The notes below the pieces were generated by a model, which worked only from the letters and a program-made list of their open reading frames with translations, was not told the origin of the DNA and made no database searches. A DNA stretch of 53,749 nt from Chitinophagales bacterium (GTDB lineage: Bacteria; Bacteroidota; Bacteroidia; Chitinophagales; Chitinophagaceae). A program made the translations under genes and the position numbers. Positions 7,867 through 50,152 of the stretch are shown here, in pieces (positions within the stretch are counted from its first letter, which is position 1; each line of letters begins with the position of its first letter). The DNA is taken from contig JAURJU010000101.1 in NCBI GenBank assembly GCA_030832085.1, positions 1 to 53,749 on the forward strand. Reading direction: 5' to 3'.

Positions 7867-7870
7867 GGAA

Positions 7871-7877: not shown

Positions 7878-7907
7878 GAAATTGATGTAAAATTGGTTTT
7901 TGACAGT

Positions 7908-9050: not shown

Positions 9051-9084
9051 CGTATAATGTATTTAAGGTTTAAAATTGGTTTTG

Positions 9085-10119: not shown

Positions 10120-10143
10120 GTGCTTGCGTTTAGAATTATCAAA

Positions 10144-10995: not shown

Positions 10996-11000
10996 GTTTT

Positions 11001-11879: not shown

Positions 11880-11925
11880 GATTGATCATCAGTTTTTGAT
11901 TCATCAAATGGGTTGGAATGTTCTG

Positions 11926-15108: not shown

Positions 15109-15117
15109 GGTCTTCGT

Positions 15118-16335: not shown

Positions 16336-16353
16336 ACAACAGTGATTGAAATT

Positions 16354-17400: not shown

Positions 17401-17404
17401 CTCG

Positions 17405-20113
17405 CTATTTTGAAGCAGTGTACACAGGATGCAATGGATTGCCTCCAGATTTCAAGTAAGCCATCAGGTCTTTCAATTCCTCAGGATTGAGTCCGTTGAT
17501 CATGCCCGGCAACATCGGTGATACGTCAGATACCCTTGTTCGTACAACATCTTTTTTCAGGATGGCCTTGATGGTTTGTGTATCGAATGGATTTTGAGAA
17601 ATGTAATATTTCAAATTGTCCTGGCGAATCAATCTGCCCAAAACAGAACCGCCTGTTTTGAGGAAGAAAACGGTGGATCCGTATTGGTCTGAAATGGTTT
17701 TGCTGGGAGAGATGATGGCCTCAAGCATGTCCTTGTTGGAGAACCGGGTTCCCAATTGAGTAAGGTCCGGGCCAGCAATACCTCCTTCACCCTTGATTTG
17801 GTGGCAGGTGCGGCAAAGCGAAGCGGCAAACATGGCCTTACCCTGTTCGAAGTTTCTTGTGCCGTTTGCGCTGTCAACAATGGCCAAAGCCTCCTCAACC
17901 TTCCAGCCGCGGCCAGGGCCTTTGGGTCTTACAGGTCCGATGTCCAAGCCTTTTCTGGCAAGGCTTACAATTTCATCACCTGACATTTTGTTGTAGGTGG
18001 CAAGACTTTCCTTGGGAACATTTTCCAATGCATTCTTTCTTGCCTTGTCAATAAACCCTACATAACAGACACCGCCTTTGTATCCGAAGGCAGTATAGTA
18101 CCATTTGAAATAGCTATTCCTCAGTTCCGTTGTCCATCCATTCTTTGCCTGGCTCAGCACGTTTGCGTACCAGGTCTGGGTGAGAGGAGGCATTTTTGAA
18201 AGCATGCCAGCAATGTCCATCCCGTATTGCGGATTTCGGAGAATGAGGTCTGCGGATGCCGATAACGTTTTTTGTGCGTTCATGTCATCCTTTGCCAGCG
18301 TCAGCAATGCCATTGTTTTTTCAACTGCTTTGGGTGCATCAACATAGACCAGCAGTTTACTGAGCTCTTTATTGAGGTCGTTTGTAGCAGCAGGGAAGAT
18401 GGGGCTGAGGAGGTTGGAAACAGCATTTTTTTCTGCTGCATCCGGGGCACCCATCCTTGTAAACACCAATTCAATGGCACGCATCAGATCCAGGCGTTGT
18501 GCATCAGAAAGTGTTGATATGTTCACTTTTGTCAATGCATCCAACAATGGTTTCTTGGTTTTAGGATCTCCGCGTCGAGCCAATCCGATGGCAGCATGTG
18601 TAAGTGTGACGGGATCTTTTTCATTCAATGTTTTTTCTGTCCACTCGCTCAAAGGTTGCGCTTCAACGGCAATTCTTGCAGCATAACGGATGAAACGATC
18701 CTTGTCTTTTAGGTAAGGCCAGGCCTCATTTACCGCACCTGCTTTGACATTGCCATGGAACGCTTCCAACTTTTTTCGGATTTTCTGTGCTTCATTCAAT
18801 TCTGCAACAACCGGCTTTGCTTCTTTGCTTTCATTTCCAGCATAGTAAACACGGTACATGTCTGACTCCAAGCGTCTGCCTCCTGTCATGAAGTAGAGTG
18901 CGCCATCAGGCCCAACTACACCATCTGTAAGTGGAAGGGGAGAACCGGAAATAAATTCTTCTCCTGTTGCAGTATAGGAGGCTCCATTTGCTTTTGGATA
19001 GACAGCATAAATAATACCAAAACTCCAATCAAAAGCAAAGAAGGCATTCCGGTATTTTTCAGGAAATTTTGCATTTCCTCCAAATACAAAATTTGTTGGG
19101 GAACCTTGGCCTACATTGATGGCGGCAGGAAGGTTGTCTGCGTAATTGGGATTCCATTTGTGGGTGCCTGGTCTCCAGCCATATTCTCCTCCGCTGGTTA
19201 CATGTAAAATTCTCGTGGGACGGTACCATGGTGTTCCGAAATCCCACTCCATGTCCGAGTCATAGGTAAACATTTCTCCGGCACTGTTGAAGGCAAGGTC
19301 AAAGGGGTTGCGAAACCCTGATGCAATCAGATCCCACTTGCTTCCGCTGGGATCAACCTGTGCCACCCATCCGCCATGGGATTCCACCGTATTGTCATGG
19401 CCATTGGGATCCTTGATCAACGGAAAGAGGTTGTCCTGCTTTCCATCGGGTATATTGCGGTAGGAGTCCATCTTTGGTATCTTGGTAAAATTTCCAGCAA
19501 TTACAAAAAGAGATTGTTTGTCAGGAGAAAGAACAATGCTGTGCGGCCCATGTTCCCCATCGCCATCAAGCAGCTTGAGCAAAGTAATCTTGTCATACTG
19601 GTCGTCTCCGTCAGTATCCTGCAGGCGATAGAGTCCGCTTGTTTTTTTCAGCTTTGCATTGCCCCTGTGGTTGATCATGACATAAAGGCTATTGAATGCA
19701 TACAGGAGTCCATGTGCATATCCCATGGAAACTTTTCCTTGGGTGGTATCGCTCATGAACGCCGGGTCATTGAGTACCTCAAGTTTTTCGATGGTTGTCT
19801 TGTTGACGGTATCTCCGATGGCTGGCACTTTTAACCGGTAAAGGAATCCATATTGGTCAGATGCAATAATCCGCCCCTTGTGATCAAAGGTCATGGATAC
19901 CCATGAACCTTCCTGGTTTTCTGATGGTCCATACAGTCGTTCCGCTATAAAATCTTGTGGGAGTTTAAGGTTTGCTACTTTGGAATCTTTTGACAGGTAA
20001 AATTCCTGCTCATCACTGATTGAAAAGGAAATAACCAGAACAATGGGAAGCGCCAGCAGCAAAAGCCTGGACAAAGGGGTCAGTTTTTTTTTCATTAGAG
20101 CATTTTTTTTCAT
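17405..20113 (-). CDS. Exported propeller/HEAT-like/cytochrome c protein
   Basis: About 902 residues, first gene of cluster A. An ATG at 20111-20113 is used; the reading frame could open at a TTG three codons earlier or at the ATG at 20093-20095. A signal sequence (LLLLALPIVLVISFSIS) is followed by a glucose/sorbosone-dehydrogenase-like propeller (about residues 40-430; GFRNPFDLAFNSAGEMFTYD, GVVGPDGALYFMTGG), a HEAT-like helical region, and a C-terminal cytochrome c with CRTCH about 90 residues after YVGFIDKA. The segment GEGGIAGPDLTQLG following the haem motif is the putative haem-binding domain signature shared with Planctomycete proteins. I infer a periplasmic dehydrogenase or electron acceptor for sugar oxidation. 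Confidence 0.87.
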   Translation of the reverse strand: MKKNALMKKKLTPLSRLLLLALPIVLVISFSISDEQEFYLSKDSKVANLKLPQDFIAERLYGPSENQEGSWVSMTFDHKGRIIASDQYGFLYRLKVPAIGDTVNKTTIEKLEVLNDPAFMSDTTQGKVSMGYAHGLLYAFNSLYVMINHRGNAKLKKTSGLYRLQDTDGDDQYDKITLLKLLDGDGEHGPHSIVLSPDKQSLFVIAGNFTKIPKMDSYRNIPDGKQDNLFPLIKDPNGHDNTVESHGGWVAQVDPSGSKWDLIASGFRNPFDLAFNSAGEMFTYDSDMEWDFGTPWYRPTRILHVTSGGEYGWRPGTHKWNPNYADNLPAAINVGQGSPTNFVFGGNAKFPEKYRNAFFAFDWSFGIIYAVYPKANGASYTATGEEFISGSPLPLTDGVVGPDGALYFMTGGRRLESDMYRVYYAGNESKEAKPVVAELNEAQKIRKKLEAFHGNVKAGAVNEAWPYLKDKDRFIRYAARIAVEAQPLSEWTEKTLNEKDPVTLTHAAIGLARRGDPKTKKPLLDALTKVNISTLSDAQRLDLMRAIELVFTRMGAPDAAEKNAVSNLLSPIFPAATNDLNKELSKLLVYVDAPKAVEKTMALLTLAKDDMNAQKTLSASADLILRNPQYGMDIAGMLSKMPPLTQTWYANVLSQAKNGWTTELRNSYFKWYYTAFGYKGGVCYVGFIDKARKNALENVPKESLATYNKMSGDEIVSLARKGLDIGPVRPKGPGRGWKVEEALAIVDSANGTRNFEQGKAMFAASLCRTCHQIKGEGGIAGPDLTQLGTRFSNKDMLEAIISPSKTISDQYGSTVFFLKTGGSVLGRLIRQDNLKYYISQNPFDTQTIKAILKKDVVRTRVSDVSPMLPGMINGLNPEELKDLMAYLKSGGNPLHPVYTASK

Positions 20114-20289
20114 CAAAAACAAGGTCGTTTATTCAATCCGGTAAAGTGGAGCAGTTTGCTTAAATTGCCCCTGGTTTTATTTCCCGTAAAGTAGGGCTTA
20201 CCCATCAATAAAAAAAATATATTGGGCAAAGTTTATGAACGGGTTTTAACCAGTCCATTTCATTTATTTTATCACAGTTTCGTATATAT
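20114..20289. promoter_or_regulatory. Divergent intergenic region between cluster A and the DUF1549/DUF1501 pair
   Basis: These 176 bases separate two divergently transcribed units of about 13 kb and 4 kb and must contain their promoters. No exact TAnnTTTG box is present on either strand; the closest minus-strand match is AAACTTTG. This suggests an alternative sigma factor or activator-dependent promoter. I see no obvious operator palindrome. Confidence 0.45.
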
Positions 20290-22806
20290 ATGAATGAAAA
20301 TTCTTCTAACAATCCTGTTCTGACCAAGCGACTGTTTTGGATAGGGCTTTTTCTTTCATGGGTATGCATATTTGCCATCCTGAATACCCTTGTTGTTTCA
20401 GGGGTTGGCGCAGGTGTGACGCAGCACCCATTCTGGGTGTTGCTTGGGAAACTGCATCCAGTGGTTGTACACCTGCCTATCGGTGTCTTTCTTTTTGCTG
20501 GTTTTCTCGAATTGCTTTCCATCAGGAACAACCCCATTGCGTATCGATCTGCCATTCAGTTGTGCCTCTTTGTTGGTCTGATTGGAGGGACTTTTTCAGC
20601 ACTTTCAGGATTGATCTTGTCTTATGGCAGCGACCATGAAAATGCACTTTTAATGAAACACCAATGGGTTGGAATCCTTGTTTTGGTGCTGAATGCAATT
20701 TCCTGGCTCTTGCATACAAGGATCATGCAGGGTGCAATACCAAAAGCATTGCTGCATTTTCGCATCGTTCTTTTTTCCGCAACCGTTTCCCTTTTTTTTG
20801 CTACTCATTATGGGGCATCACTTACCCATGGCACAAATTATTTATTGGGTCAAGTAAATGTAGCGCCACCATCGGCAAAACTGAAAAAAGCAATCATCGA
20901 TACACCGCAAGATGTACAGCCTGTTTCCATAAAAAATGATCCATTAACCCTTGAGCAGAGCATTGACCTTCATCTTCAGGTAAGGACCATTCTTGCGCAC
21001 AATTGCTATAAATGCCACGGAGAAGAAAAGTTAAAAGGTGGACTCAGGTTGGATCATATTGATCATATTTTGAAGGGAGGAGAAAGCGGCCCTGCTGTCA
21101 TTCCCGGCAAGGCATCAGAAAGTGAATTGTTCAAGCGCATCAGTTTGCCCGCTGGTCACGATGATGTTATGCCATCAGAAGGGAAAAAGCTTACAGCAGC
21201 GGAGATCAGGGTAATAGGTTTCTGGATCAACAGTGGTGCTTTGTGGCCTGACAGTCAGCAGTTGAAAAAAACATTTCGGGTTGCAGCGCTTGCGCCGCGC
21301 AATCCAACTTTGCCAAAGTCTTCATCTGCATTCGACAATTCCATAGACCAATGGACAAATGAATATTTCAAGCAGAAAAACCTTCGATGGCCCAGGTTGG
21401 CCGATGACAGGACTTTCATCCGAAGGGTGTATATGGACATCATTGGATTGCTTCCACAGCCTTCAGAAATGGAAGCGTTCCTTTCTGACCAATCTTCCAA
21501 CAAAAGGGCAGCGTTGGTTTCGAAATTGCTATCGCGTCAAGACGATTATGCTTCCCATTGGTTGAGTTTTTGGAATGATGCCCTGCGCAATGATTACACT
21601 GGCACTGGATACATAACTGGCGGTAGGTTCAACATCACCGATTGGTTGTATACTTCCATTAAATCCAACAAACCCTATCCCCAGTTTGTAAAAGAACTGG
21701 TGAGTCCCACCAAGGAGTCAAAGGGCTTTATTGAAGGTATAAAATGGAGAGGGGAAATCAATGCCAGTCAACGAACAGAAATGCAGGCTGCCCAGAATGT
21801 TGCGCAGGTTTTTCTTGGACTGAACCTCAAGTGCGCTTCTTGTCACAACAGTTTCATCAGCGATTGGAAGCTATCTGATGCATACGGATTTGCCAATATT
21901 TTTGCAGACAGCTCTTTGGAGATCAACCGTTGTGATAAACCAACCGGCAAGTTTACACGTCCACAAATGCTCTGGAAAGATTTGGGGAAAATCGACAGCC
22001 TGGAATCACGAAAAGTGAAGATGGCGCAACTGGCGGAAATCATGGTGAAGCCAGAGAATGGGCGGCTTTACCGTACTGTCGTTAACCGCATTTGGAGGCA
22101 GATGATGGGTCGTGGATTGGTTGAGCCGGTAGACCAGATGGACAATCAACCCTGGAGCCAGGATTTATTGGATTGGCTGGCATTTGATTTTCAAAAAAAA
22201 GGTGGTGACATCAAAGCGTTGATTTACCAAATTGCTACATCAAAAACCTACCAAACAGCTTCAGTTGGACTCAAGGATCCCAATGACATTGTCCTTCAGA
22301 ATTATACGTTCAAGGGGGTATTGAGAAAGCGCATTACGGCTGAACAATTTGCCGACATTGCAGGTGTGATTGTAGATCCGATTTTCCCCGATTCAATCAT
22401 GAAATACAAACCAAAATTTGACATTGGGTTTGTTCCTGCAGGTGGGTTTTATGCACGTGCTGCATTTATCGCAAACAATTCTTTTTTGATTGCTATGGGA
22501 AGACCCAACAGGGAAAATGTTACCACAAGCAGGGAGACCCAGGCCAACTTATTGCAAGCACTGGAATTGACCAATGGAGACCGCTTCAATGCCATGTTGA
22601 AAAGAGGTGCCGTCAAATGGAAACAGCGGTATAACGATCGCGAATCCCTTGTTCAGGCAGTTTATCGGTTGGGCTTGGGACGCAAACCCAATTCCAGAGA
22701 GAAGGCCGTTGCTGAAAATCTAATGGGTTCCAATCCCAGCTTGGAGTCCATTCAGGACTTTTTCTGGGCCATCTTATTGTTGCCGGAATTGCAGATCATT
22801 GATTAA
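20290..22806 (+). CDS. Membrane-anchored cytochrome c fused to DUF1549 and DUF1553 domains
   Basis: 838 residues. Residues about 12-185 form 4-5 membrane helices with the motif HPVVVHLPIGVFL (DUF2231-like). A PSCyt1-type cytochrome follows with CYKCH at 239-243, GGLRLDHI and the conserved VMPSEGKKLTAAEI tail. DUF1549 occupies about 350-540 (RTFIRRVYMDIIGLLPQPSE) and contains a second haem-like motif, CASCH at 515-519. DUF1553 fills the rest (YRTVVNRIWRQMMGRGLVEPVDQMD). These families are abundant in Planctomycetes and of unknown biochemical role. The fusion to a membrane module argues for electron transfer to the respiratory chain. The DUF1501 partner starts about 20 bases downstream. Confidence 0.85.
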   Translation: MNENSSNNPVLTKRLFWIGLFLSWVCIFAILNTLVVSGVGAGVTQHPFWVLLGKLHPVVVHLPIGVFLFAGFLELLSIRNNPIAYRSAIQLCLFVGLIGGTFSALSGLILSYGSDHENALLMKHQWVGILVLVLNAISWLLHTRIMQGAIPKALLHFRIVLFSATVSLFFATHYGASLTHGTNYLLGQVNVAPPSAKLKKAIIDTPQDVQPVSIKNDPLTLEQSIDLHLQVRTILAHNCYKCHGEEKLKGGLRLDHIDHILKGGESGPAVIPGKASESELFKRISLPAGHDDVMPSEGKKLTAAEIRVIGFWINSGALWPDSQQLKKTFRVAALAPRNPTLPKSSSAFDNSIDQWTNEYFKQKNLRWPRLADDRTFIRRVYMDIIGLLPQPSEMEAFLSDQSSNKRAALVSKLLSRQDDYASHWLSFWNDALRNDYTGTGYITGGRFNITDWLYTSIKSNKPYPQFVKELVSPTKESKGFIEGIKWRGEINASQRTEMQAAQNVAQVFLGLNLKCASCHNSFISDWKLSDAYGFANIFADSSLEINRCDKPTGKFTRPQMLWKDLGKIDSLESRKVKMAQLAEIMVKPENGRLYRTVVNRIWRQMMGRGLVEPVDQMDNQPWSQDLLDWLAFDFQKKGGDIKALIYQIATSKTYQTASVGLKDPNDIVLQNYTFKGVLRKRITAEQFADIAGVIVDPIFPDSIMKYKPKFDIGFVPAGGFYARAAFIANNSFLIAMGRPNRENVTTSRETQANLLQALELTNGDRFNAMLKRGAVKWKQRYNDRESLVQAVYRLGLGRKPNSREKAVAENLMGSNPSLESIQDFFWAILLLPELQIID

Positions 22807-22827
22807 ATTAGCATTGAAACATTGCCA

Positions 22828-24252
22828 ATGAGCAACCACAAGGACAGAAGGAATTTTTTAAAGACGACCAGTGCTGCAACCATTGCAGCACTGGGTGCCT
22901 CCATGCCTCTTTCAGGTCTCTTGAGCAGCATGAAGCCCATAGGGAAGACTTCAACGGCAGATACAGTTATTCTGCTATGGATGGGCGGCGGCATGGCACA
23001 TACCGAAACATTCGACCCCAAAAAATTTACTGCATTTTCCACTGGAATGAAATCCAACGATGTGTTGAGTACTTTCCAATCTGTGCCTACCGTTTTGGAT
23101 GATGTCTATTTTTCAGAAGGCCTTCAATCCATAGGAAACGTGTTGGATAGGGGTACGGTCATTCGTTCCTATGTTGCAGCAGACATGGGGCATATCCTGC
23201 ATTCCCGTCACCAATACCATTGGCATACCTGTTATCGGCCGCCACAATCCGTATCTGCTCCGCACATTGGATCCTGGATAGCGAAAGAGCTGGGGCCCAT
23301 CAATTCAGCCATTCCGGCTTTTATTGATATCGGGCAACGTTTTACTGTAGGCGAAGGAGAGGAGCTCAAGGCCTTTCATACGGCAGGATTTTTGGGTAAC
23401 GAGTTTGGTCCGTTCATGATTCCTGATCCAACAGCAGGATTGGAATCTGTGCGGCCCCCTGTAGGGATGAATGAAACAAGGTTTGAAAAAAGAAACCAGC
23501 TTTACCGTGAATTGATGAAACAAGGTGCCATGGGTGAATTTGGTTCGGATTATCACAAGGAATCCATGGTCCGTTCCATGGAGCAGGCCTACCGTTTGTT
23601 GAAGTCGCCGGAAGCTGCTGCATTTGACCTCAACAAAGAACCTCGATCAAGCTATGAAGTTTATAATACTGGAAGATTTGGCCTGGGATGCCTTATGGCA
23701 AAGCGACTCACACAGCAGGGCGCACGCTTCATCAGTGTGACCACAGAATATGAACCATTCATGAACTGGGACACGCATGAAAATGGCCATACACGTTTGA
23801 AGGAAATGAAAAAGAGGATTGACGCTCCCATTGCCCAATTGGTCAAAGATCTTGAAAAGTCTGGTCATCTGGACAGAACCCTGATTGTTTTGGCCACCGA
23901 ATTCAGCAGGGACATGATGGTAGAAGGTCGACCCGAATTGAAGGTGCAAGAGCAGGTTCGGCAGCCAGAAATCATCAATGACATTAAATTTTATGGTATG
24001 CACAGGCATTTTACCGATGGCTGTTCAATGCTCATGTTTGGTGGGGGTATTAAAAAGGGAAATGTGTATGGAAAAACAGCCGATGAGCGGCCATGCAAAA
24101 CAGTGGAAAACCCCATTGTGATCGACCAGGTTCACCAAACCATTTACCATGCTTTGGGAATAGATCCTCAAACCAATTATGTCGTAGAGGAAAGACCATT
24201 TTATACTACGCCAGACGGCAAAGGAAAGCATGTAAAGGAACTTTTTGGTTAA
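22828..24252 (+). CDS. DUF1501 (sulfatase-like) protein with Tat-type leader
   Basis: About 474 residues. The N-terminus DRRNFLKTTSAATIAALG has the twin-arginine motif, so it is probably folded before export. The body has the alkaline-phosphatase-superfamily signature of DUF1501: TVILLWMGGGMAHTETFDPK near the start, FINWDTHENGH-like segment FMNWDTHENGHTRLKEM in the middle and GMHRHFTDGCSMLMFGGG near the end. An upstream ATG at 22822 adds two residues. DUF1501 genes usually pair with DUF1549/DUF1553 genes, as here. Biochemical function is not established; a metal-dependent hydrolase acting outside the cytoplasm is inferred. Confidence 0.87.
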   Translation: MSNHKDRRNFLKTTSAATIAALGASMPLSGLLSSMKPIGKTSTADTVILLWMGGGMAHTETFDPKKFTAFSTGMKSNDVLSTFQSVPTVLDDVYFSEGLQSIGNVLDRGTVIRSYVAADMGHILHSRHQYHWHTCYRPPQSVSAPHIGSWIAKELGPINSAIPAFIDIGQRFTVGEGEELKAFHTAGFLGNEFGPFMIPDPTAGLESVRPPVGMNETRFEKRNQLYRELMKQGAMGEFGSDYHKESMVRSMEQAYRLLKSPEAAAFDLNKEPRSSYEVYNTGRFGLGCLMAKRLTQQGARFISVTTEYEPFMNWDTHENGHTRLKEMKKRIDAPIAQLVKDLEKSGHLDRTLIVLATEFSRDMMVEGRPELKVQEQVRQPEIINDIKFYGMHRHFTDGCSMLMFGGGIKKGNVYGKTADERPCKTVENPIVIDQVHQTIYHALGIDPQTNYVVEERPFYTTPDGKGKHVKELFG

Positions 24253-37031: not shown

Positions 37032-38819
37032 TCAATAAAAAAACACTTCATCCAAAAACACATAGCCCATTTGCCCCTTTTCCTGGTGCCATGCGGGAAG
37101 TGATTTGAGTGGAAACATTTCTATTTCAATGTAGGCATAATGGCCAGGTTTTATGGGAACCACATATGGTATGGATGCATTGGGTCTTCGCTTGAGGGGC
37201 ATTTCTGGGGAAAGGCTTCCGATTGTTTTTAGGCTTTTTGGGTTTTTTCCTCCTTTGATGGTGATTTTGGTGGGAGGGAAAACAGATGCTCCAGAAGAAT
37301 TTGTCATGTCTGCTGCACTTATAACAATTTGCTGGAGGTTCGGATTGCGGCCAAAATGGAAACCAGCCTTGAAGTTTTCCTTTTTGAATCCGAGCCAGCT
37401 GTTATAAAGCTGATCGGCGGTTTGACTGAACCCCTTTTTGCCATCAATGAGAATTTTGGCCCCAAATGTTTTACCCCTGTTCGGCTTGCTCAGCAAGGTT
37501 GCGGAGTCACAGTCAATGCCCTTTGGGTAAACTGTAAAGTCTATCATTTCACTGGTTATCCAACCTTCCAAAGTGGTCACTGCCTTGATGCGCATCAAAT
37601 CCCTTGTGTACAATTCTCCATTGTAAAATTTCCCATTGGCTGAATCAGGAGTCAATCCGTTTGTCGTGTACCTGATTTTTGCGTTGGGAAACGGATTTTT
37701 CAATGCAACCTTTACCTCATTTTCAAAGATCAGGTTTTCATCGTTTTCAGGGTAGGGTGGGGACAGTTGCAAGACTTCATTTTTATTTGCCTGATAGCCC
37801 ATTTCCCATTTTATGTTGGAGGACTTGCTTTTCAGCACAACAAGATCCTTCACTCCAATGCTTGTATTCCAAACAAAAACATGTTTGAGGGAAGTCATTT
37901 TTACAAGCGGTAAAATTGCCTGAAGGCCAATGGATGTATTTACAACAGAGAGCTGCTCCAGTTTTTTTAGTGACAACAATTTGTTGATGCCATCACCAGT
38001 TATGGATGTTGAATTTAGGTTTAGTTTTTCCAAGTTTACAAAATCTGCGAGGATTGAAAAAACCTGGTCGTCAACGGGCATCCCAGACAGGTTGATTTCA
38101 ACAATTTGTTCACTTATTTTTTTGCATTCTCTCAATTGTTTGATGTCAAATTTTTCCTTCAGTGAGAATTTTACAACAAGTGCAGGGCTTGTTGCAGAAA
38201 CCTTCAAGACCCTTCTGAACGGATTGTTCAAACTTTCAATTGCTGATGCAGAAGCCGCAGGAAAAAAATATTTTTTTTCAAATGCAGTTTCGTTGTCGCT
38301 GTCTGATTTCTTTTTGCCAAAACTAAAAAAATTTTCTCCATGCGTGAGGATTCCTCCAAAGTGTCCCCCTGCAATTGTTGTCACAACGGTAAATACCAAG
38401 ACTGTGTACCATAAAACTGGTTTTGTCTGAAGCAGTTTGTTCAGATAGATGAGTGCATGACTGAGCAATGCAGTGGAGATCCCTAGCCATTGGTGAATGT
38501 TAAGTGAACCTTCCTCGTATTTTCCTGATGCTGCAAGCAGAAAGCCTGCAATGGCTGTCAATGTTGAAGCCAATGTTGTGCAGTACAACATGAGTTCAAG
38601 TGCCCCGGCAATATTTTTTTGGCTACTTCTATTTCTGGCAAACCAGGAGAGGGGAAGCAATAATAGGATGAGGGTAATGGGCAGGTGTAAAACAACTGGA
38701 TGAATTCTGCCTGCAAACAAAACTGACGGAGGCAAATTGCTCAGGTCCACAAAGCAGAACATCAGCATGAATACCTGCAATACAAGAATTGTGTTTGATA
38801 ATATGGTGAGGCGGTTCAT
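37032..38819 (-). CDS. Membrane protein with LRR-like and chitobiase-C-terminal-like domains, haem domain absent
   Basis: 595 residues from the ATG at 38817-38819. Five to six membrane helices with HPVVLHLPITLILLLLP (DUF2231-like) fill residues about 1-165. A short linker leads straight into leucine-rich-like repeats (LEKLNLNSTSITGDGINKLL, LKHVFVWNTSIGVKDL), a CHB_HEX_C_1-like beta domain (KIRYTTNGLTPDSANG, LMRIKAVTTLEGWI) and a C-terminal galactose-binding-like domain ending in VFLDEVFFY. It is a paralogue of the gene just upstream but lacks the 120-residue PSCyt1 cytochrome segment present there. It is probably an electron-inactive carbohydrate-sensing or structural partner in the inner membrane; that is inference. 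Confidence 0.7.
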   Translation of the reverse strand: MNRLTILSNTILVLQVFMLMFCFVDLSNLPPSVLFAGRIHPVVLHLPITLILLLLPLSWFARNRSSQKNIAGALELMLYCTTLASTLTAIAGFLLAASGKYEEGSLNIHQWLGISTALLSHALIYLNKLLQTKPVLWYTVLVFTVVTTIAGGHFGGILTHGENFFSFGKKKSDSDNETAFEKKYFFPAASASAIESLNNPFRRVLKVSATSPALVVKFSLKEKFDIKQLRECKKISEQIVEINLSGMPVDDQVFSILADFVNLEKLNLNSTSITGDGINKLLSLKKLEQLSVVNTSIGLQAILPLVKMTSLKHVFVWNTSIGVKDLVVLKSKSSNIKWEMGYQANKNEVLQLSPPYPENDENLIFENEVKVALKNPFPNAKIRYTTNGLTPDSANGKFYNGELYTRDLMRIKAVTTLEGWITSEMIDFTVYPKGIDCDSATLLSKPNRGKTFGAKILIDGKKGFSQTADQLYNSWLGFKKENFKAGFHFGRNPNLQQIVISAADMTNSSGASVFPPTKITIKGGKNPKSLKTIGSLSPEMPLKRRPNASIPYVVPIKPGHYAYIEIEMFPLKSLPAWHQEKGQMGYVFLDEVFFY

Positions 38820-38905
38820 CACATTTTACCCATGTGTTTTTATTCAATGGTGAGATGCATGTAAAACAGGTACAAGAAATTGCCAGCACCAAAACCGGTA
38901 ACCCA

Positions 38906-41068
38906 TCAGTAAAAAAATACCTCATCTACAAACACCCATCCTTTGTCACCCTTTCCTGGATGCCATTTGGGCAATACGTTTACTGTCGTTGCCTCGATTT
39001 CGATGTATTTGTATTTCTTTTTTTCAACTGGAATGACAAATGGAATAAGGTGCTTCCTCCTTTTTTCTTTGGGTTGTTCCGGAACAAGGGTCTTTAACAC
39101 CTTCATGGAACCGGGAGATTCCCCACCTTTGACGATTATTTTTTTTGCGGGCATCACATAGCCATCAACACTTTCAACGGTGCTCAATAAAATCTCTTTT
39201 ATTTCCTCGCCTTTTGAGAAATATATGCCAGCCTTGAAGGAGTTGTCGCGGAATCCCAGCCAATTCACATTGAGGTTGCCTGAAGAACCCTTGACAAGAT
39301 CAGTCAACGTCAGTGCACCTTGCCCCTTGTATTGTTTATCAGGAGGGTTGATCATTCTGATGGAATCAGGCTTGAAGCCCTTCAAAAAGAAGGTATTGTC
39401 TGCTGTGTCGCTGGTTTTCCAGCCTTGGGCTACCGAAATGGCTTTTATGCGCATCATGCCGGTTGCAGGAAAGGGCTTTGTGTAGAGTGTGCTGCTCAGG
39501 GAGTCTGGCGGGCTGCCATCCGTAGTGTAGCGGATTTGAACACCTTTCATTTGGGTTTTAAAGGCAATCAATTCGTCAGGGCCAAATATCCGCTTGTCTG
39601 CATCAAGGAATCTTGGAATGGTGAGCTTCAGCAATTCATTCTTATCGGGAATGTAGCCCAGGTCCCAACCAACTTTGGGATATTTTTTCCGGAGACCAGC
39701 AATGTCAGCTTCTGTGATGGAAGTGTTCCAAAGGAATACCTTTTTTAAGTTAGGCATGTTTCCCAAGGCATCCATCATTGGCAAACCAACTGATGTACTT
39801 GCAAGAGAAATCTGTTCCAGTTGCTTGTTGGCTTTCAGAATGTTCAGGTTTTTGCCTGAAATTAAAGTGCCGTTGAGGTTGATGCGTTCAATATTTTCGA
39901 ACGAAGACAGGACAGGGATGGCATTATCATCAGCAGGCATGCTGGACAGGTTGACCTCAATGATTTGTGAAGCGATGCTCTTGCATTCTTTCAACATGTT
40001 CAGGTCGTATTTCTCCTTGAGATAAAACTTGACGCTGAGGGCTGGTGATGTTGAGGACAATGGCAGAATTCTTCTGAAGGGGGAGTTGAGTGTTTCTATT
40101 GTAGATGTGGAAGCGGCTGAAAACGAATATGTTTTTTCCAGTTTTGGAACAGGGACATCTTTGATGATCTTGGCAACGATTGTTCTCAGCACATTCGTGT
40201 CTGGCAATGAATGGTAAGTGGTTTTGGGATTTGCTCCTGCCCTGATCCATTCCTGGAACAAAAGAATTTCTGCAGCACTGAGCTGAGCCTTTCCTTTGGG
40301 CGGCATGTGTTTTTTGTCATCCATGTCCAACAACAACCTTTCGACCATTGGACTCTTTTCCGGATCTCCTGCAACCCACATGGATCCTGACTTCCCGCCC
40401 TTCATCATTGAAGACAGGTTTTTCATGTTCAACCCACCTTTTGTCTTTTGATCGTTATGGCATTCCACACATTTTGCTGCAAGAATTGGTTGTACAGCAC
40501 CATCAAAGACAGTTGTTTTGTCTGTAAAAGTGGCCACAGCAATTGAAGGCTTTGGGTCTGCGTTAAATGTAAAAAATCCCTCGCCATGCGTTAGGCTCCC
40601 TCCATAGTGACTTCCGACAAGCATTGTAACCAAGGTTGTTGTCATGGCAGTATTCCAAACAATGGCACGCTGTCTAAAAGTTTTTTTGATGTACACCAGT
40701 GCATGTGTTGAAAATGCAACTGCAACACCAAGCCATTTGTGAAAACGAAGTGATTCTTCGTCATATCCGCCTTCAGCTGCCAGCAAAAATCCTGCCAGTG
40801 CAGTAAGTGTTGAGATCAATGCTGTATAGTGAAGCAACAGATCAAACAGTGTTGAAAGATTTTCTGCATCTTTATTTCTCTGCAGGTAGATGGAAAAGGG
40901 TATTGACAAGAGAATAAGCGTGATGGGCAGGTGCAATACAACAGGATGAAATCTTCCGGTAAATAAAACAAGCTGGGGAAGTACACTCAAGTCTACGAAA
41001 CAGAATACGAGCAGAAAAACCTGCAACACAATGAGCAGGTTGGAGACGATAAAAAGATGTCTTGACAT
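38906..41068 (-). CDS. Membrane-anchored cytochrome c with LRR-like and chitobiase-C-terminal-like domains
   Basis: 720 residues. Residues about 1-170 are a DUF2231-like membrane module (HPVVLHLPITLILLSIPFS, then GSHYGGSLTHGEGFF). A PSCyt1 cytochrome follows, with CVECH at 200-204, GGLNMKNL and the conserved MPPKGKAQLSAAEI. Then come LRR-like repeats (IERINLNGTLISGKNLNIL, LKKVFLWNTSITEADIAGL), a CHB_HEX_C_1-like module (QIRYTTDGSPPDSLSS, MMRIKAISVAQGW), and a C-terminal galactose-binding-like domain ending in VFVDEVFFY. The combination of membrane haem protein with carbohydrate-recognition modules is unusual. Third gene of cluster B, followed by its haemless paralogue. Confidence 0.72.
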   Translation of the reverse strand: MSRHLFIVSNLLIVLQVFLLVFCFVDLSVLPQLVLFTGRFHPVVLHLPITLILLSIPFSIYLQRNKDAENLSTLFDLLLHYTALISTLTALAGFLLAAEGGYDEESLRFHKWLGVAVAFSTHALVYIKKTFRQRAIVWNTAMTTTLVTMLVGSHYGGSLTHGEGFFTFNADPKPSIAVATFTDKTTVFDGAVQPILAAKCVECHNDQKTKGGLNMKNLSSMMKGGKSGSMWVAGDPEKSPMVERLLLDMDDKKHMPPKGKAQLSAAEILLFQEWIRAGANPKTTYHSLPDTNVLRTIVAKIIKDVPVPKLEKTYSFSAASTSTIETLNSPFRRILPLSSTSPALSVKFYLKEKYDLNMLKECKSIASQIIEVNLSSMPADDNAIPVLSSFENIERINLNGTLISGKNLNILKANKQLEQISLASTSVGLPMMDALGNMPNLKKVFLWNTSITEADIAGLRKKYPKVGWDLGYIPDKNELLKLTIPRFLDADKRIFGPDELIAFKTQMKGVQIRYTTDGSPPDSLSSTLYTKPFPATGMMRIKAISVAQGWKTSDTADNTFFLKGFKPDSIRMINPPDKQYKGQGALTLTDLVKGSSGNLNVNWLGFRDNSFKAGIYFSKGEEIKEILLSTVESVDGYVMPAKKIIVKGGESPGSMKVLKTLVPEQPKEKRRKHLIPFVIPVEKKKYKYIEIEATTVNVLPKWHPGKGDKGWVFVDEVFFY

Positions 41069-41094
41069 AGATGTTTTTTCTTAGGGAAAAATAG

Positions 41095-42546
41095 CTAGGC
41101 AATGATTCCATTGACCACCTGCCCTGCAACATCGGTAAGCCTGTAACGCCTGCCCAAATGCCGATAGGTAAGCTGCTCGTGGTTGATTCCCATCAGGTGA
41201 AGAACAGTTGCATGAAAATCGTGAACGCTCACGGGATCTTTGATGGGATTGTAGCCAAATTCATCCGTCTCTCCATAAACCATTCCAGGTTTTATCCCGC
41301 CACCGGCCATCCAGATGCTGAAACATTTTGGGTGATGGTCGCGTCCATAATTGGCCACATCAATTTTGCCTTGGCAATAATTGGTTCTTCCAAATTCACC
41401 TCCCCAAATCACCAGCGTTTCGTCCAGCAATCCCCGTTGTTTGAGGTCTTTGATCAGGCCAGCTGATGCCCTGTCAACATCCTCAGCTTGCATGCGCATG
41501 TCGTTGGCAAGGTTCCCATGTGTATCCCAGCCTTGGTGATAGAGTTGAACAAAGCGGACTCCTGATTCTGAAAGCTTTCTGGCCAGCAGGCAGTTGGCGG
41601 CGTATGTGCCAGGAACAAGACAATCCGGGCCATACAGCTTGATGGTGGTATCAGATTCCTTGCTGAGGTCGGTCAATTCAGGCACTGCACTTTGCATCCT
41701 GTAGGACATTTCGTATTGCTTGATCCTGGTATTGATTTCCGGGTCTCCAAAATTTTCAAATGCTTCTGAGTTGAACTTTGCAAGCTGGTCAAGCATGTCT
41801 CGACGGCTTTGCTTGTCATGTCCTTCGGGATTTTTAAGATAAAGTACTGGGTCTTCACCGCTGCTGAATACAACTCCCTGGTGGACACTGTCAAGAAAAC
41901 CATTGGTCCACAACTTTGAATAAACGCCCTGGCCGTTGCCCCTTCCACGCGACAAAAGAACAGTGTAGGAGGGTAGATTGGAGTTCTCACTGCCCAATCC
42001 ATAGCTCATCCAGGCACCCATGCTGGGTCGATTTCCCTGTTGTGCACCTGTTTGAAAGAATGTCAATGCAGGGTCATGGTTGATGGCTTCTGTGTTCATT
42101 GTTTTCACAATGCATATGTCATCAGCAATGGACGCTATATTGGGGAAAAGCTCCGAAATCCAAGCACCTGATTGACCATGTTGTGAAAACCCAAAGGTTG
42201 ATCCTACCAGAGGGAACTTTTCCTGGTTGGCGGTCATGCCTGTTAGTCTTTGGCCCATCCTGATGGAGGCTGGCAGTTCCTCACCATGCATTTTGTTGAG
42301 CAGTGGTTTGTAATCAAAGGTCTCCAGTTGGGAAGGGGCCCCATTTTGAAAGAGGTAAATGATCCTTTTGGCCTTGGGTGCATATTGGGCAAGTCCCAAT
42401 GGAATGGTTTGCTGTTGATCGACACCGAACAGCTGGTCCTTGAACAGCATTGAGCCCAATGCAGCACTTCCGAATCCTAAACCGGCCTTTGTAAGAAAAT
42501 GTCTTCTGGTGACATTCAGCCTGAATTGTTTTTCCTGGTTTTCCAT
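41095..42546 (-). CDS. DUF1501 (sulfatase-like) protein with Tat-type leader
   Basis: 483 residues. The leader NVTRRHFLTKAGLGFGSAALGS has a twin-arginine motif. The DUF1501 body shows AKRIIYLFQNGAPSQLETFDYKP, FVQLYHQGWDTHGNLANDM, GLLDETLVIWGGEFGRTNYC, and DHHPKCFSIWMAGGGIKPGMVYGETDEFGY, all diagnostic. It lies 4 bases after the DUF1549/DUF1553 gene, as in Planctomycete gene pairs. It is a paralogue of the cluster A DUF1501 protein but not nearly identical. Likely metal-dependent, exported. Confidence 0.88.
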   Translation of the reverse strand: MENQEKQFRLNVTRRHFLTKAGLGFGSAALGSMLFKDQLFGVDQQQTIPLGLAQYAPKAKRIIYLFQNGAPSQLETFDYKPLLNKMHGEELPASIRMGQRLTGMTANQEKFPLVGSTFGFSQHGQSGAWISELFPNIASIADDICIVKTMNTEAINHDPALTFFQTGAQQGNRPSMGAWMSYGLGSENSNLPSYTVLLSRGRGNGQGVYSKLWTNGFLDSVHQGVVFSSGEDPVLYLKNPEGHDKQSRRDMLDQLAKFNSEAFENFGDPEINTRIKQYEMSYRMQSAVPELTDLSKESDTTIKLYGPDCLVPGTYAANCLLARKLSESGVRFVQLYHQGWDTHGNLANDMRMQAEDVDRASAGLIKDLKQRGLLDETLVIWGGEFGRTNYCQGKIDVANYGRDHHPKCFSIWMAGGGIKPGMVYGETDEFGYNPIKDPVSVHDFHATVLHLMGINHEQLTYRHLGRRYRLTDVAGQVVNGIIA

Positions 42547-42550
42547 GGTT

Positions 42551-44890
42551 TTATTTTACGGTGGTTTCGTCCAAGTTGAATATCATTTGGTTTACCTGCA
42601 TGAGCGCGGCTGTTTCAGCAATGTTTTTTGTTTTGATCTGTTCAAATTCTCCAGCTTTCAAGAATTGTTCAGCATTTTCCTTGTGAAGGGTGAACTTGTT
42701 TTTTTCTTGCTGGTAGTAGGCTTTGAGCATTTTCATTTCGTTTTCAGTTGCTTTTCTACACAGTACCTGACGGAACATCCTGTCCAATTTCTGGTCCTCA
42801 GAAAGTTTCATGTTTGCAGTTCGCTGTGCCAAAACCCTGGCAGCCTCAAGCAGTTGAGGGTCATTCATCAACACCAAGGCTTGGAGGGGGGTGTTGGTCC
42901 TTGACCTGGTCACTTCGCATTGGTCGCGGGTACTGGCATCCATGATCAGCAAGGAGGGAGGAGGGGCTGTCCTTTTGATGAAATTGTACAACCCTCTTCT
43001 GTAGAGTTTATCACCCTTGTCCTGTACATATTTTGCAAGCTCACCCCGACCGGATGTGGTAGACTCCCAAACCCCTTTTGGTTGGTATGGTTTCACACTG
43101 GGACCACCAATTTCGGGATTGATGATGCCGGCTGCACTGAGTACCAGATCACGCTGCAATTCCGCACTCAGCCTTAACCTTGGGAAAAAGCTGTAGTATT
43201 TATTGTCCGGGTCTTTTTGTGCTTTGTCAGTGGGTCTTTTGGCGGATTGCCTGTATGTTGTAGAAGTAACAATGAGGCGAATGAGTTTTTTGATGTCCCA
43301 TCCTGTCTCCCTGAATTCTACTGCGAGCCAGTCCAGCAATTCTGGGTGTGATGGCAACTCGCCTTGCATACCAAAATCACCCGAAGTTTTGACCAATCCA
43401 CGTCCAAACAATTCATTCCAAATCCTGTTTACGTAAACCCTTGCTGTCAATGGATTTTCCGGATCAATCATCCACCTTGCAAGGCCAAGCCTGTTTTGTT
43501 GGTATTTCTTTGTGTTATAAGACAAGATGGCGGCAGGTGTTGCCATCTGCACTGTATCTGCTTTTTGGTCATACACACCTCTTCTAAGCAATTGGGTCTC
43601 ACGGATGGAAAGACTGTCTTTCATGATCATCACACTGACATCCATAGTGTCTTTCTTGTTGATGAAATTCAGTACTGTGGAAACATCAGCACTGGTGATT
43701 TTCATGCTTGGTGGATCTGCAAATGAAGCATCTATGGTTCCAACAAGCCCCTTTTCCGGTACTTTATCGAAAAAGGCAAACATGCTGTAGTAATCCTTCT
43801 GGGAAACGGGATCGTATTTGTGGTCATGGCATTTGGCACATTCCAATGTAATGGCCAGGAATGCCTTGCCAAAAGTATTTGTCCTGTCGCTGACATATTC
43901 GATCCTGTATTCTTCATCAATGACGCCCCCTTCCTGGGTAATTTTATGGTTTCTGTTGAAACCGGTTGCAAGCAGTTGCTCCTTTGTAGGATTTGGCAAG
44001 AGGTCACCAGCAATCTGCCAGGTCAGAAACTTGGAAAATGGATAATTGCTGTTGAATGCGTGGATGACCCAGTCGCGCCAGGGCCACATCGTGCGCAAGC
44101 CATCATCTTGATAACCATGGCTGTCTGCATACCTTGCAAGGTCCATCCATTGGATGGCCATTTTCTCTCCGTAATGCTTGCTGGAAAGCAGCTCATCGAC
44201 AACTTTCTCATATGCATTGGGAGATTGGTCTGCAAGAAATCTTTCCTGTTGTTCAATGGTTGGTGGAAGCCCTGTGATGTCCATGGAAACCCTTTTCAGC
44301 AATGCTTCCCTGCTTGCCTCTGGATTGGGTGTCATGCCAACCTCATCCAATTTTGAAAAGATGAAATGGTCGATGGGGTTTCTTGGGTTCAGGTCTTCAT
44401 CCGCAACTGGAATTTTGGGCCTGACGGGAGCAATGAAAGACCAATGCTTCTTGTATTTGGCTCCTTGGGAGATCCATTTTTTGATGATGGCAATCTCTGT
44501 TTTGGTTAGGGAAAGATTTGAGGAGGGTGGTGGCATCACTTCCGCAGTGTCTGTTGTGATTAAACGGGCATACAAAGCAGATTGCATTGGGTCTCCTGCA
44601 ACAATCACGTGTTTTGAAGGGTCTTCTTTTAGTGCTGCAAAAGCACCCTCTTCTGTATCCAGCCGAAGATCTGCCTGTCGTTTATTGGCATCGGGCCCAT
44701 GGCACTTGAAGCAGCGGTCAGACAGGATGGGCCTGACATGGAAATTAAAGTCTACCACATCAGGAATGGCATCCTCTTGCTCATTCCCGGAAGTAAAAAA
44801 ATAAAAGCCAATTCCCATCAGCACAATCGCTGAGGAGGTTACCAAAATCTTGTTTTTGGCCAATTTGATCAGTAGTTGGGCGTTTGTCAT
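42551..44890 (-). CDS. PSCyt1-DUF1549-DUF1553 cytochrome protein
   Basis: 779 residues, first gene of cluster B. One N-terminal membrane anchor (residues about 13-33) is followed by a PSCyt1 cytochrome with CFKCH at 60-64 and DLRLDTEEGAF. DUF1549 contains RVSMDITGLPPTIEQQERFL and a second haem-like motif CAKCH at 351-355 (CAKCHDHKYDPVSQKDYYSMF). DUF1553 has ARVYVNRIWNELFGRGLVKTSGDFG. The N-terminus has only one anchor, unlike the cluster A counterpart, where a polytopic module is fused on. Role unknown; exported electron carrier or enzyme inferred. Confidence 0.88.
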   Translation of the reverse strand: MTNAQLLIKLAKNKILVTSSAIVLMGIGFYFFTSGNEQEDAIPDVVDFNFHVRPILSDRCFKCHGPDANKRQADLRLDTEEGAFAALKEDPSKHVIVAGDPMQSALYARLITTDTAEVMPPPSSNLSLTKTEIAIIKKWISQGAKYKKHWSFIAPVRPKIPVADEDLNPRNPIDHFIFSKLDEVGMTPNPEASREALLKRVSMDITGLPPTIEQQERFLADQSPNAYEKVVDELLSSKHYGEKMAIQWMDLARYADSHGYQDDGLRTMWPWRDWVIHAFNSNYPFSKFLTWQIAGDLLPNPTKEQLLATGFNRNHKITQEGGVIDEEYRIEYVSDRTNTFGKAFLAITLECAKCHDHKYDPVSQKDYYSMFAFFDKVPEKGLVGTIDASFADPPSMKITSADVSTVLNFINKKDTMDVSVMIMKDSLSIRETQLLRRGVYDQKADTVQMATPAAILSYNTKKYQQNRLGLARWMIDPENPLTARVYVNRIWNELFGRGLVKTSGDFGMQGELPSHPELLDWLAVEFRETGWDIKKLIRLIVTSTTYRQSAKRPTDKAQKDPDNKYYSFFPRLRLSAELQRDLVLSAAGIINPEIGGPSVKPYQPKGVWESTTSGRGELAKYVQDKGDKLYRRGLYNFIKRTAPPPSLLIMDASTRDQCEVTRSRTNTPLQALVLMNDPQLLEAARVLAQRTANMKLSEDQKLDRMFRQVLCRKATENEMKMLKAYYQQEKNKFTLHKENAEQFLKAGEFEQIKTKNIAETAALMQVNQMIFNLDETTVK

Positions 44891-48065: not shown

Positions 48066-48085
48066 GACCATTGTATGCCATGATC

Positions 48086-50152
48086 ATGAAAATCAACGTT
48101 GTCTTTTTTGCTGTTTTTTTTATTTGTTTCAACGCAAATGCACAGGAAAAAAATGATTCTGTGGTTGGTTTGGAATCTGCTGTTGTGAAAGGCTTTTTGA
48201 CCAACAGCCAACTTGTTCAGGTACCTGCGTCAATCTCTAACATCAGCCGTCAGGATTTGCAGAAAAATGCTGCTTACAGTTTGTTGCCTGCTTTCAACAA
48301 CCTTGCTGGAGTCAGGATGGAAGAAAGATCGCCTGGAAGTTATCGGTTGTCTGTTCGTGGAAGTTTGTTGAGGTCTCCTTTTGGCGTTAGGAATGTCAAG
48401 ATGTACTTGGATGAATTTCTCTTTACTGATGCAGGGGGGAATGCATATTTCAATCTGTTGGACGTGAACAGCATCAGTGGCGCAGAAGTCATCAAAGGAC
48501 CAGCAGGAAGCATATATGGTGCAGGGACAGGAGGGGCCGTGCTTTTGTCAGGTGCATCTCTGACTTCGTCAGGCAAGGACACCAGCATGTTTCGTATCAA
48601 GGCCTCAGGTGGAAGGTTTGGGACATTCAACGAAACTGTCCAGTATCAATTGAACCGAAGTGCATATTCTCTTGATCTTTTGCAGGGGCATATCCAGTCA
48701 AAAGGATTTCGTGACCACAGCAGCATGCGGAAGGACAATCTTCAGTTGCGGATGAAGATCAACGGCAGCGAACGCATGACAACAGAGATGCTATTGATGT
48801 TTGTGGACCTGAAATATCAAACTCCCGGTGGGTTGACCCTTGCGCAACAAAACGAAAACCCACGGCAAGCAAGGCCTGGCACCAATACCATTCCTTCTCC
48901 CAAACTGCAAAGAGCCGGTATTTTCAACACATCAGCCCTGCTTGGATTTTCCAATACGTATGTTTTATCGGATCATTGGAAATCCATCATTTCGTTCTCC
49001 ACTTCCATGACAGGTTTCAAAAACCCATTCATCACCAATTTTGAAAAAAGGACCGAGTTTAACTTGGGCATGCGTACTACATTTGTCTATGAAAAAAAGT
49101 TGCCCATTTTTTTGCAGTGGGTGAATGGTGCTGAAGCACAAAGGGGTGATTATACCATTGACAGCAGTGGAAACAACAGGGGGGTGTCTGATGGGAAAAT
49201 GGTACGGGACGCCGTTGTTGCACGACAACAATTTTTGTTTTCACAACTCAGCGTCAGACCGGTTGATTTTCTGCAAATACAGGCAGGAATCAGTGTCAAC
49301 AGTTTCAATTATGCCATTGAAAGAACCGTGGGATTGCCTGCGTCTGGGCCTAAGGATATCGTCTTTGATCCCCAGTTGTTGCCGCGTGTTGCTTTATCTC
49401 TTTATCCAATGAAAGGGCTTGCTTTGTATGCACAGGTTTCCAAGGGATATTCGTCTCCCACGGTTGCAGAAATCAGGCCTTCAGCTGGAGGGCTTTACAC
49501 CGGACTTCAGGCTGAACATGGCTTGAACCGGGAGGTGGGCTTGAAGTTGTCATCCAACAAAGGCAGGTTGTTTTTCAGTGCGGTTGTATTTCGGTTTGAT
49601 TTGAAAGATGCCATCGTCAGGAAGACAAACGCCGCAGGCGCAGAGTATTTTGTGAATGCCGGAACTGTTGTTCAGAGAGGACTTGAATCCGAACTTTCCT
49701 GGCTGTTGCTCAACAAGCCCAATGCAAAATGGATTGAACAGGTCAAAATAACACATGCAATGACCTTCAATGATTTTAGTTTTGGGAACTACATTGTTGG
49801 TACATCAAATTATTCAGGAAAAAAATTGACTGGAGTTCCCAGTGAAATGATTGCAATCGCAGTCCAGATCTCATTTTTAAAACATTTCTTCAGCAATGTC
49901 AATTTCAATCATGTAGGCAAAATTCCCCTTAACGATGCCAACGCTTTCTTTGCTGCGCCATACCGTTTGTGGCAGGGAAAATTTGGATGGCAGGGGATAA
50001 TTGCACGCAAGCAAATGGAATTGTTTACCCTCATTGATAACATGGGCAATGCTCTATACAGCTTGGGCAATGACATCAACGCATTCGGTGGCAGGTTTTA
50101 CAATCCGGCTCCAGGAAGAAATCTCCAGTTGGGAATATCGGTTAACCTTTGA
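48086..50152 (+). CDS. TonB-dependent receptor, siderophore/cofactor type
   Basis: About 688 residues. The ATG at 48086 gives a clean signal peptide (MKINVVFFAVFFICFNANAQ); an ATG two codons earlier is equally possible. There is no CarboxypepD_reg domain. The plug starts at about residue 35 (LVQVPASISNISRQDL, YSLLPAFNNLAGVRME, SVRGSLLRSPFG, VIKGPAGSIYGAGTGGAVLLSG), followed by a barrel ending in LQLGISVNL. The compact plug resembles ferric-siderophore or cobalamin receptors. No SusD or transport genes adjoin it; ligand unknown. A terminator separates it from pdhB, and it is tail to tail with the esterase. Confidence 0.85.
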   Translation: MKINVVFFAVFFICFNANAQEKNDSVVGLESAVVKGFLTNSQLVQVPASISNISRQDLQKNAAYSLLPAFNNLAGVRMEERSPGSYRLSVRGSLLRSPFGVRNVKMYLDEFLFTDAGGNAYFNLLDVNSISGAEVIKGPAGSIYGAGTGGAVLLSGASLTSSGKDTSMFRIKASGGRFGTFNETVQYQLNRSAYSLDLLQGHIQSKGFRDHSSMRKDNLQLRMKINGSERMTTEMLLMFVDLKYQTPGGLTLAQQNENPRQARPGTNTIPSPKLQRAGIFNTSALLGFSNTYVLSDHWKSIISFSTSMTGFKNPFITNFEKRTEFNLGMRTTFVYEKKLPIFLQWVNGAEAQRGDYTIDSSGNNRGVSDGKMVRDAVVARQQFLFSQLSVRPVDFLQIQAGISVNSFNYAIERTVGLPASGPKDIVFDPQLLPRVALSLYPMKGLALYAQVSKGYSSPTVAEIRPSAGGLYTGLQAEHGLNREVGLKLSSNKGRLFFSAVVFRFDLKDAIVRKTNAAGAEYFVNAGTVVQRGLESELSWLLLNKPNAKWIEQVKITHAMTFNDFSFGNYIVGTSNYSGKKLTGVPSEMIAIAVQISFLKHFFSNVNFNHVGKIPLNDANAFFAAPYRLWQGKFGWQGIIARKQMELFTLIDNMGNALYSLGNDINAFGGRFYNPAPGRNLQLGISVNL

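Follow-up and report, generated by a model that had tools for sequence, protein, structure and literature searches.

Which process is served by a membrane cytochrome that ends in a glycosidase-type module and is encoded next to PSCyt1-DUF1549-DUF1553 and DUF1501 proteins? The question is raised by a locus of a Chitinophagales bacterium (assembly GCA_030832085.1, contig JAURJU010000101.1, positions 1-53,749, a stretch of 53,749 nucleotides referred to below as the window), where four minus-strand open reading frames (ORFs) between 44890 and 37032 encode, in this order, proteins that we call A, B, C and D. A is the PSCyt1-DUF1549-DUF1553 protein, B the DUF1501 protein, C the membrane cytochrome and D a haem-less paralogue of C. 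Their order and spacing had been proposed in an initial annotation made from the sequence alone, and they hold: the intergenic gaps in the ORF list are 4, 26 and 83 bases (the last had been put at about 85). Our analysis shows that A, B and C are a real gene unit, and tentatively suggests a role in glycan processing at the cell envelope.

A conserved three-gene unit in Bacteroidota

A scan for the C family, with one genome per species, returned at least 592 stretches, at least 551 of which encode relatives, and the best 80 loci were examined. Fifteen of these, having less than 5.5 kb of upstream sequence near a contig end, were left out; in every one of the 65 judged, B and A lie upstream of C in the same order and on the same strand. 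This was established by an automatic walk in 64 loci and by inspection in L157, where a 105-residue reverse ORF had halted the walk before A. The gap between A and B has a median of 12 bases (64 loci). By title, 77 of the 80 loci are from Bacteroidota, a placement of the genus names that we assume for all except Splendidivirga, which was looked up; the other three are 'uncultured bacterium' bins (L082, L083 and L088) that share the synteny of the window. The best 80 loci include Dyadobacter, Runella, Chitinophaga and Mucilaginibacter. The initial annotation had treated all four genes as one co-occurring cluster, and this stands for A, B and C but not for D, which is found in full length at only five of 34 fetched same-genus loci in addition to the window. 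D is an additional copy of C, devoid of haem, that belongs to a single sub-clade and occurs only in the window and a small number of its near relatives.

Purifying selection acts on each of the four genes, most strongly on B and least on D. The ratio of nonsynonymous to synonymous substitution rates (dN/dS) is 0.011-0.012 for B (three pairs), 0.031-0.047 for A (three pairs), 0.078-0.083 for C (five pairs) and 0.115-0.166 for D (five pairs), compared with 0.032-0.034 for DnaG (three pairs); these values are rough, since the synonymous sites of A, B, C and DnaG are almost saturated. Spread of the system by viruses was considered and rejected, as 126 pattern matches in the viral contigs scanned included no relative.

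The unit also accommodates additional genes. A protein of 325-360 residues stands between B and C in 24 of 64 loci, the L068 copy being an SGL/NHL propeller, and in 10 of 64 loci the same part of the operon includes a protein of 241-305 residues, identified by its length and by having C as its best match. The one such protein scanned with Pfam, from L102, consists of the hexosaminidase-type module alone. Examples of these stand-alone modules are L102:9848-10684, L108:9788-10705 and L127:9947-10732, and the three that were viewed have a signal-like N-terminus.

Of particular interest is a second cluster within the window, on the plus strand, in which the membrane-haem half of C is joined to the core of A in a single protein, followed by a DUF1501 gene of its own (Table 1). 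Since this fusion joins the two halves, A and C probably form one complex. The genome contains four DUF1549 matches and six DUF1501 matches (including a weaker one to the gene on C110 discussed below), and further related clusters lie on contigs C45, C22 and C107. In the paralogous clusters A carries either a LamG_3 domain (E 2.4e-12) or a sub-threshold CBM_6 match (E 1.7e-4). In the C22 cluster (L010) a run of N precedes the DUF1501 gene, and no A gene is seen there. One genome enters the set of 125 C-type proteins twice, with two locus ids; three proteins that lack the haem motif CxxCH were set aside.

Domain structure of the encoded proteins

C has Pfam matches to PSCyt1 (8.1e-15), CHB_HEX_C_1 (3.1e-11) and Fn3_assoc (3.7e-11). 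Its haem motif, CVECH, is confirmed at residues 200-204, and C200, C203 and H204 are invariant in 57 C sequences; the Met of HMPP would be a haem ligand. The AlphaFold model of C (mean predicted local distance difference test, pLDDT, 89.5; predicted template modelling score, pTM, 0.43) consists of six N-terminal helices (3-24, 32-44, 46-64, 69-97, 104-130 and 135-161), a small haem domain, a leucine-rich repeat (LRR) segment and a beta-rich C-terminus. In this model the membrane histidines fall close to helix ends that would be on one face of the membrane, where they may form a second cofactor site. The N-terminal module had been described as DUF2231-like. Related proteins exceed the Pfam cut-off for DUF2231 (PF09990), namely the fusion protein of the window and proteins of loci L010 and L011, but C and D themselves score below it (17.5 and 17.9 bits against 26.4).

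The LRR-like repeats proposed for C are real: with the C-family profile, LRR proteins of solved structure are matched (GALA protein at 8.2e-10, an LRR receptor kinase at 2.3e-9), and LRR entries occur among the structural matches. The Pfam LRR match falls below cut-off in D and is not listed for C. The proposed CHB_HEX_C_1-like and galactose-binding-like C-terminus is supported by Pfam, by profile comparison and by structure. Residues 505-718 of C align with residues 561-772 of the hexosaminidase BT0459 (PDB 6q63) at E 3.3e-13, the C-family profile matches the same protein at E 4.5e-37, and it is the top Foldseek match of the C model (E 2.9e-18). Further Foldseek matches include the Akkermansia sialidase/fucosidase entry 8ayr, EndoS, carbohydrate-binding modules (CBMs) of sialidases, CBM32 domains (2j7m, template modelling (TM) score 0.69 by target length) and LRR proteins. 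Structure prediction thus returned both an LRR and a CBM-like fold for C, and the opposite outcome, neither fold, was not seen. C differs from BT0459 in that it lacks the GH20 catalytic domain and places the module on a membrane cytochrome.

Pfam also bears out the identity of A, with PSCyt1 (1.1e-14), DUF1549 (5.4e-87) and DUF1553 (4.8e-99) all above cut-off and in that order. To the anatomy first annotated we add a second haem motif, CAKCH at residues 351-355; two CxxCH motifs are present in 49 of 50 A-family sequences. The predicted model of A is mostly helical (pLDDT 82.3, pTM 0.84). Six segments of the model have low confidence, and three of them (257-259, 318-322 and 652-660) contain highly conserved residues, as might be expected where a model misses cofactors. 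The PSCyt1 part of A resembles FoxE (PDB 5mab) in a profile comparison, at a whole-sequence E of 1.9e-5 and with single stretches at 0.044 and 2.7; the likeness ends with the haem domain, and profile comparison found no credible match to solved proteins outside the PSCyt1 part. A lipobox pattern is absent from A of the window and present in 18 of 50 relatives.

B is a DUF1501 protein over its full length (PF07394, 1.4e-155, profile positions 1-390), again as annotated. A twin-arginine translocation (Tat) leader had been assigned to it; the Tat-like RRxF motif is present in 28 of 29 B sequences, but the TAT models give no match on B of the window. DUF1501 may belong to the alkaline phosphatase/sulfatase superfamily, to which B shows a weak similarity. 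Five residues (D341, H343, E384, D403 and H404) are invariant in 29 B sequences and are candidate metal ligands.

D has Pfam matches to CHB_HEX_C_1 (5.2e-6) and Fn3_assoc (8.6e-6). None of its six copies contains CxxCH, which corrects the anatomy of the initial annotation. The membrane histidine motifs HP...H.P and H.W are found in all six copies, and the strict third pattern in four. The D ORF, 38822-37032 (596 residues), opens with GTG-ATG; because the relatives align from the ATG, position 38819 is the more likely start.

Table 1. Features of the A-B-C-D locus and of the fusion cluster, in window positions
Feature	Position	Strand	Remarks
Gene A	42551..44890	-	779 residues; N-terminal hydrophobic helix, PSCyt1, DUF1549 (PSCyt2), DUF1553 (PSD1); diheme
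Haem motif 1 of A	44699..44713	-	CFKCH, residues 60-64; at least 90% conserved in 50 sequences
Haem motif 2 of A	43826..43840	-	CAKCH, residues 351-355, inside DUF1549; C351, C354 and H355 invariant in 50 sequences
Gene B	41095..42546	-	483 residues; DUF1501, Tat-like RRxF leader
Gene C	38906..41068	-	720 residues; DUF2231-like membrane module, PSCyt1, LRR, CHB_HEX_C_1/Fn3_assoc, CBM32-like C-terminus
Membrane module of C	40583..41068	-	Residues 1-162; His41, 46, 110 and 161 invariant, 154 nearly so
PSCyt1 of C	40292..40471	-	Residues 200-259; CVECH 200-204; candidate Met ligand in HMPP 254-257
LRR region of C	39659..39964	-	About residues 369-470; profile and model
Hexosaminidase-type C-terminal module of C	38909..39568	-	Residues 501-720; sequence, profile and Foldseek matches
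Gene D	37032..38819	-	595-596 residues; C paralogue minus haem domain; membrane histidine motifs, LRR-like region and CHB module retained
DUF2231-PSCyt1-DUF1549-DUF1553 fusion	20290..22806	+	Pfam
DUF1501 partner of fusion	22822..24252	+	Pfam

Likely relation to DUF1800

DUF1501 also has a haem-free partner. DUF1800 matches occur in 96 of 149 order-level genomes, and in 27 of 30 DUF1800 loci tblastn finds a DUF1501-like sequence on the same strand, at most 1.5 kb downstream (24 of them at E<0.05, the E values relating to a database of 30 short loci with 1.5 kb flanks). In the genome studied here the two genes overlap on contig C110. The DUF1501 protein of this pair (L191 5152-8353) bears a Por_Secre_tail sorting domain (1.2e-9), and for this reason may reach the cell surface.

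The two partners of DUF1501 resemble each other in a short core motif. A profile comparison of DUF1553 (79 sequences) with the C-terminal half of DUF1800 (31 sequences) gives P 3.8e-6 and a probability of 87% over 32 columns, and the reversed-profile controls give P 0.14 and 0.24. When 23 clustered families are compared with DUF1800, the two DUF1549/1553 families rank first and second (4.9e-5 and 0.015), the other 21, which form the null, having P values of 0.031 or worse; the second of the two is smaller (six members), and its value is near that of the best unrelated family. Extension of the alignment into its flanks is collinear and not significant, and global alignment of DUF1553 and DUF1800 found nothing. 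Compared as whole proteins with DUF1800, A gives P 1.1e-4, C 0.0075 and B 0.15. A wider A set gives P 0.0013; it probably includes C-type proteins, since 109 of its 175 members have a single CxxCH, and as it seems mixed in this way we rely on the comparison restricted to DUF1553. DUF1553 and DUF1800 thus likely share the ancestry of a core as well as their DUF1501 partner. A bolder extension, which we regard as doubtful, is that a single helical fold, the partner of DUF1501, has split into a DUF1549/DUF1553 branch and a DUF1800 branch, together making up a widespread class of envelope enzymes acting on glycans. The former branch would have acquired haems and, within Bacteroidota, also a membrane cytochrome whose exchangeable carbohydrate-binding head directs the enzyme to its substrate.

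Proposed function and alternatives

We infer that A, B and C form one complex in the cell envelope that processes glycans, or amino sugars and mannosides derived from them. We hold this reading tentatively, and it falls somewhat short of an even chance. C would be the membrane anchor, in which a DUF2231-like helical module with a histidine cluster is followed by a haem c domain, an LRR spacer and an outward-facing hexosaminidase-type binding module. A, which would have two haems and be almost entirely helical, would dock on C, and B, a hydrolase-like protein exported by the Tat pathway, would act together with A. The substrate would be held by C and, in the paralogous clusters of the same genome, also by A through its LamG or CBM6-like insert. 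A and B would perform the chemistry, and the haems, presumably ligated at their CxxCH motifs, would relay electrons towards C and the membrane or away from them; which way the electrons flow, and what reaction takes place, is a guess.

The glycan part of this proposal draws on gene context. Neighbours in relatives, picked by eye, include members of glycoside hydrolase (GH) families GH92, GH3, GH29, GH18 and GH20 and NagB-PIG-L, and GH92-GH125 stands beside A in L102 and L107. Ten proteins were picked for Pfam in this way, nine neighbours and one propeller; among the nine, an aminotransferase and a GDSL lipase have no specific tie to glycans. In addition, the C107 cluster of this genome encodes Asparaginase_2 two genes upstream of A. 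Together with the module of C and the LamG_3 and CBM_6 matches on A, these neighbours suggest N-glycans or other glycans of N-acetylhexosamine or mannose.

Several observations weigh against the proposal. A Foldseek comparison of the A model with the PDB gives no credible match (E 0.68 and probability 0.02 at best), and therefore the enzyme class cannot be read from A. A possible link of A to cytochrome c peroxidase/MauG, suggested by a motif, accordingly has no PDB match behind it. The matches of B to solved sulfatases are weak (E 0.044 and 0.51, and 0.43 in a second comparison); a Phosphodiest match (0.006, below the Pfam cut-off) covers an overlapping region, and an unrelated hydrogenase matches another part of B at 0.4. 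The structural alignment of C with 6q63 is poor (TM 0.23, root mean square deviation 17, several domains strung together), and the CBM-like fold is a predicted binding module, not a proof of binding. The window genes scanned in 24753-52140 outside the clusters include no glycosidase and no SusC/SusD, and one TonB receptor (48071-50152); the neighbours are housekeeping or general genes, namely dnaG, a priA-type gene, phosphoenolpyruvate carboxykinase (PEPCK), pyruvate dehydrogenase E1 beta, the TonB receptor and enzymes of tRNA genes. Finally, the enrichment of glycosidases near the locus is a weak, small signal: among the 25 top families listed, near neighbours include at least 7 glycosidases in 110 (GH92 2, GH125 2, GH29 2, GH95 1) and far neighbours 2 in 110 (GH2_N). 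These samples were drawn from 157 near and 111 far neighbours, with 12 loci of the window group, 15 near-duplicate loci and neighbours whose best match is C itself (including a GH29 in L105) excluded.

A further objection comes from DUF1800, none of whose 31 sequences contains CxxCH, a warning that the core chemistry need not be redox. The core may instead be non-redox, with DUF1501 as the catalytic hydrolase or transferase, DUF1549/1553 or DUF1800 as a scaffold for folding or substrate, and the haems acquired later to serve sensing, stability or maturation. This alternative, which we consider unlikely, though less so than the two that follow, is favoured by the haem-free pairs and their overlap on C110, by the core motif common to DUF1553 and DUF1800, by B being the most constrained gene and by D, a copy of C kept without haem. 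The homology with DUF1800 is limited to about 32 well-aligned columns. The haem motifs of A and C, however, are near-universal or invariant in their families, and so are arguably needed, and the hydrolase metal ligands of B are only inferred from conserved residues.

The initial annotation favoured oxidative glycan catabolism feeding the respiratory chain, in which A would oxidise a sugar and electrons would pass from the haems of A to that of C and on to the membrane module. The multiple haem motifs fit this, as does the fusion of membrane module, haem domain and DUF1549/1553. The same window also contains a 3-keto-sugar type locus (7159-20122) with two other cytochrome c proteins, and PMC5615132 ties PSCyt genes to CBMs and sulfatases. 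A, however, has no known dehydrogenase fold, and no flavin, pyrroloquinoline quinone or NAD domain is found among the Pfam matches of the four proteins at E 0.1; no glycan gene is found among the scanned neighbours in the window. We judge this reading improbable.

Equally improbable, in our estimate, is a role in envelope maintenance, whereby the system would modify or salvage the cell's own polymers or lipids containing N-acetylglucosamine (GlcNAc) and not food glycans. A housekeeping role is suggested by the stable site beside dnaG, found at 25 of 34 same-genus loci (PEPCK is visible in 14), which also speaks against our proposal, and by the strong constraint on B. According to PMC5122149, DUF1800-DUF1501 pairs occur in operons of bacterial chitin synthases, whose product is again a GlcNAc polymer. 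The system is nevertheless patchy in the phylum, with DUF1553 in 29 of 247 sampled Bacteroidota genomes, and the several clusters per genome with differing binding modules look like substrate variants. A simple polysaccharide utilisation locus is rejected for the window, whose scanned neighbours lack SusC/SusD and glycosidases; some relatives' loci carry SusD or glycosidases.

Other genes in the window

The locus at 7159-17400 (minus strand) encodes a 3-keto-disaccharide hydrolase, a GFO/IDH/MocA oxidoreductase, two xylose-isomerase-like TIM barrels, ThuA, a DUF7133-HEAT-cytochrome c protein and DUF4432, and looks like a 3-keto-glycoside pathway. It adjoins a TonB receptor at 4381-6873. Within its bounds, a 405-residue protein at 15118-16335 (minus strand) has no Pfam match at E 0.01 or 0.001. 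At 17405-20122 (minus strand), divergent from the fusion gene, lies a 905-residue protein with a C-terminal cytochrome c and a weak HEAT match. A 929-residue ORF at 1595-4384 (plus strand) has a weak RhuM match, below cut-off, as its sole Pfam match.

Relation to known systems

Pairs of PSCyt and DUF1501 genes are already known. In freshwater Verrucomicrobia, according to PMC5615132, some PSCyt genes carry CBMs, many lie near sulfatases and they usually stand beside two unknown families, their function being unknown. Genomic clusters containing DUF1501 in PVC bacteria are mentioned, after an earlier paper, in PMC4452313. PMC2754498 counts DUF1549 and DUF1553 41 times each in Rhodopirellula baltica, and suggests a stress-induced extracytoplasmic function (ECF) sigma factor gene as regulator of a PSC2/PSD1 gene. 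The locus described here shares with the planctomycete-type systems the same domains and the adjacency of A and B; it differs in its Bacteroidota lineage and in a third, membrane-bound haem protein that bears the binding module. The hexosaminidase-type module is not among the CBMs in the Figure 8 legend of PMC5615132, and the open-access subset of the literature covered gave no account of a membrane cytochrome with such a module, nor of the relation between DUF1553 and DUF1800. What is new is thus the conserved membrane partner with its glycosidase-type module, the fusion evidence and the relation to DUF1800.

The Bacteroidota version offers a three-gene unit in named genera, a binding module that hints at the class of substrate, and a haem-free sister pair for comparison, and thereby makes the function of DUF1549/DUF1553 testable. 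Likewise, the resemblance between part of the core of this cytochrome system and the haem-free DUF1800-DUF1501 pair makes the function of both testable anew.

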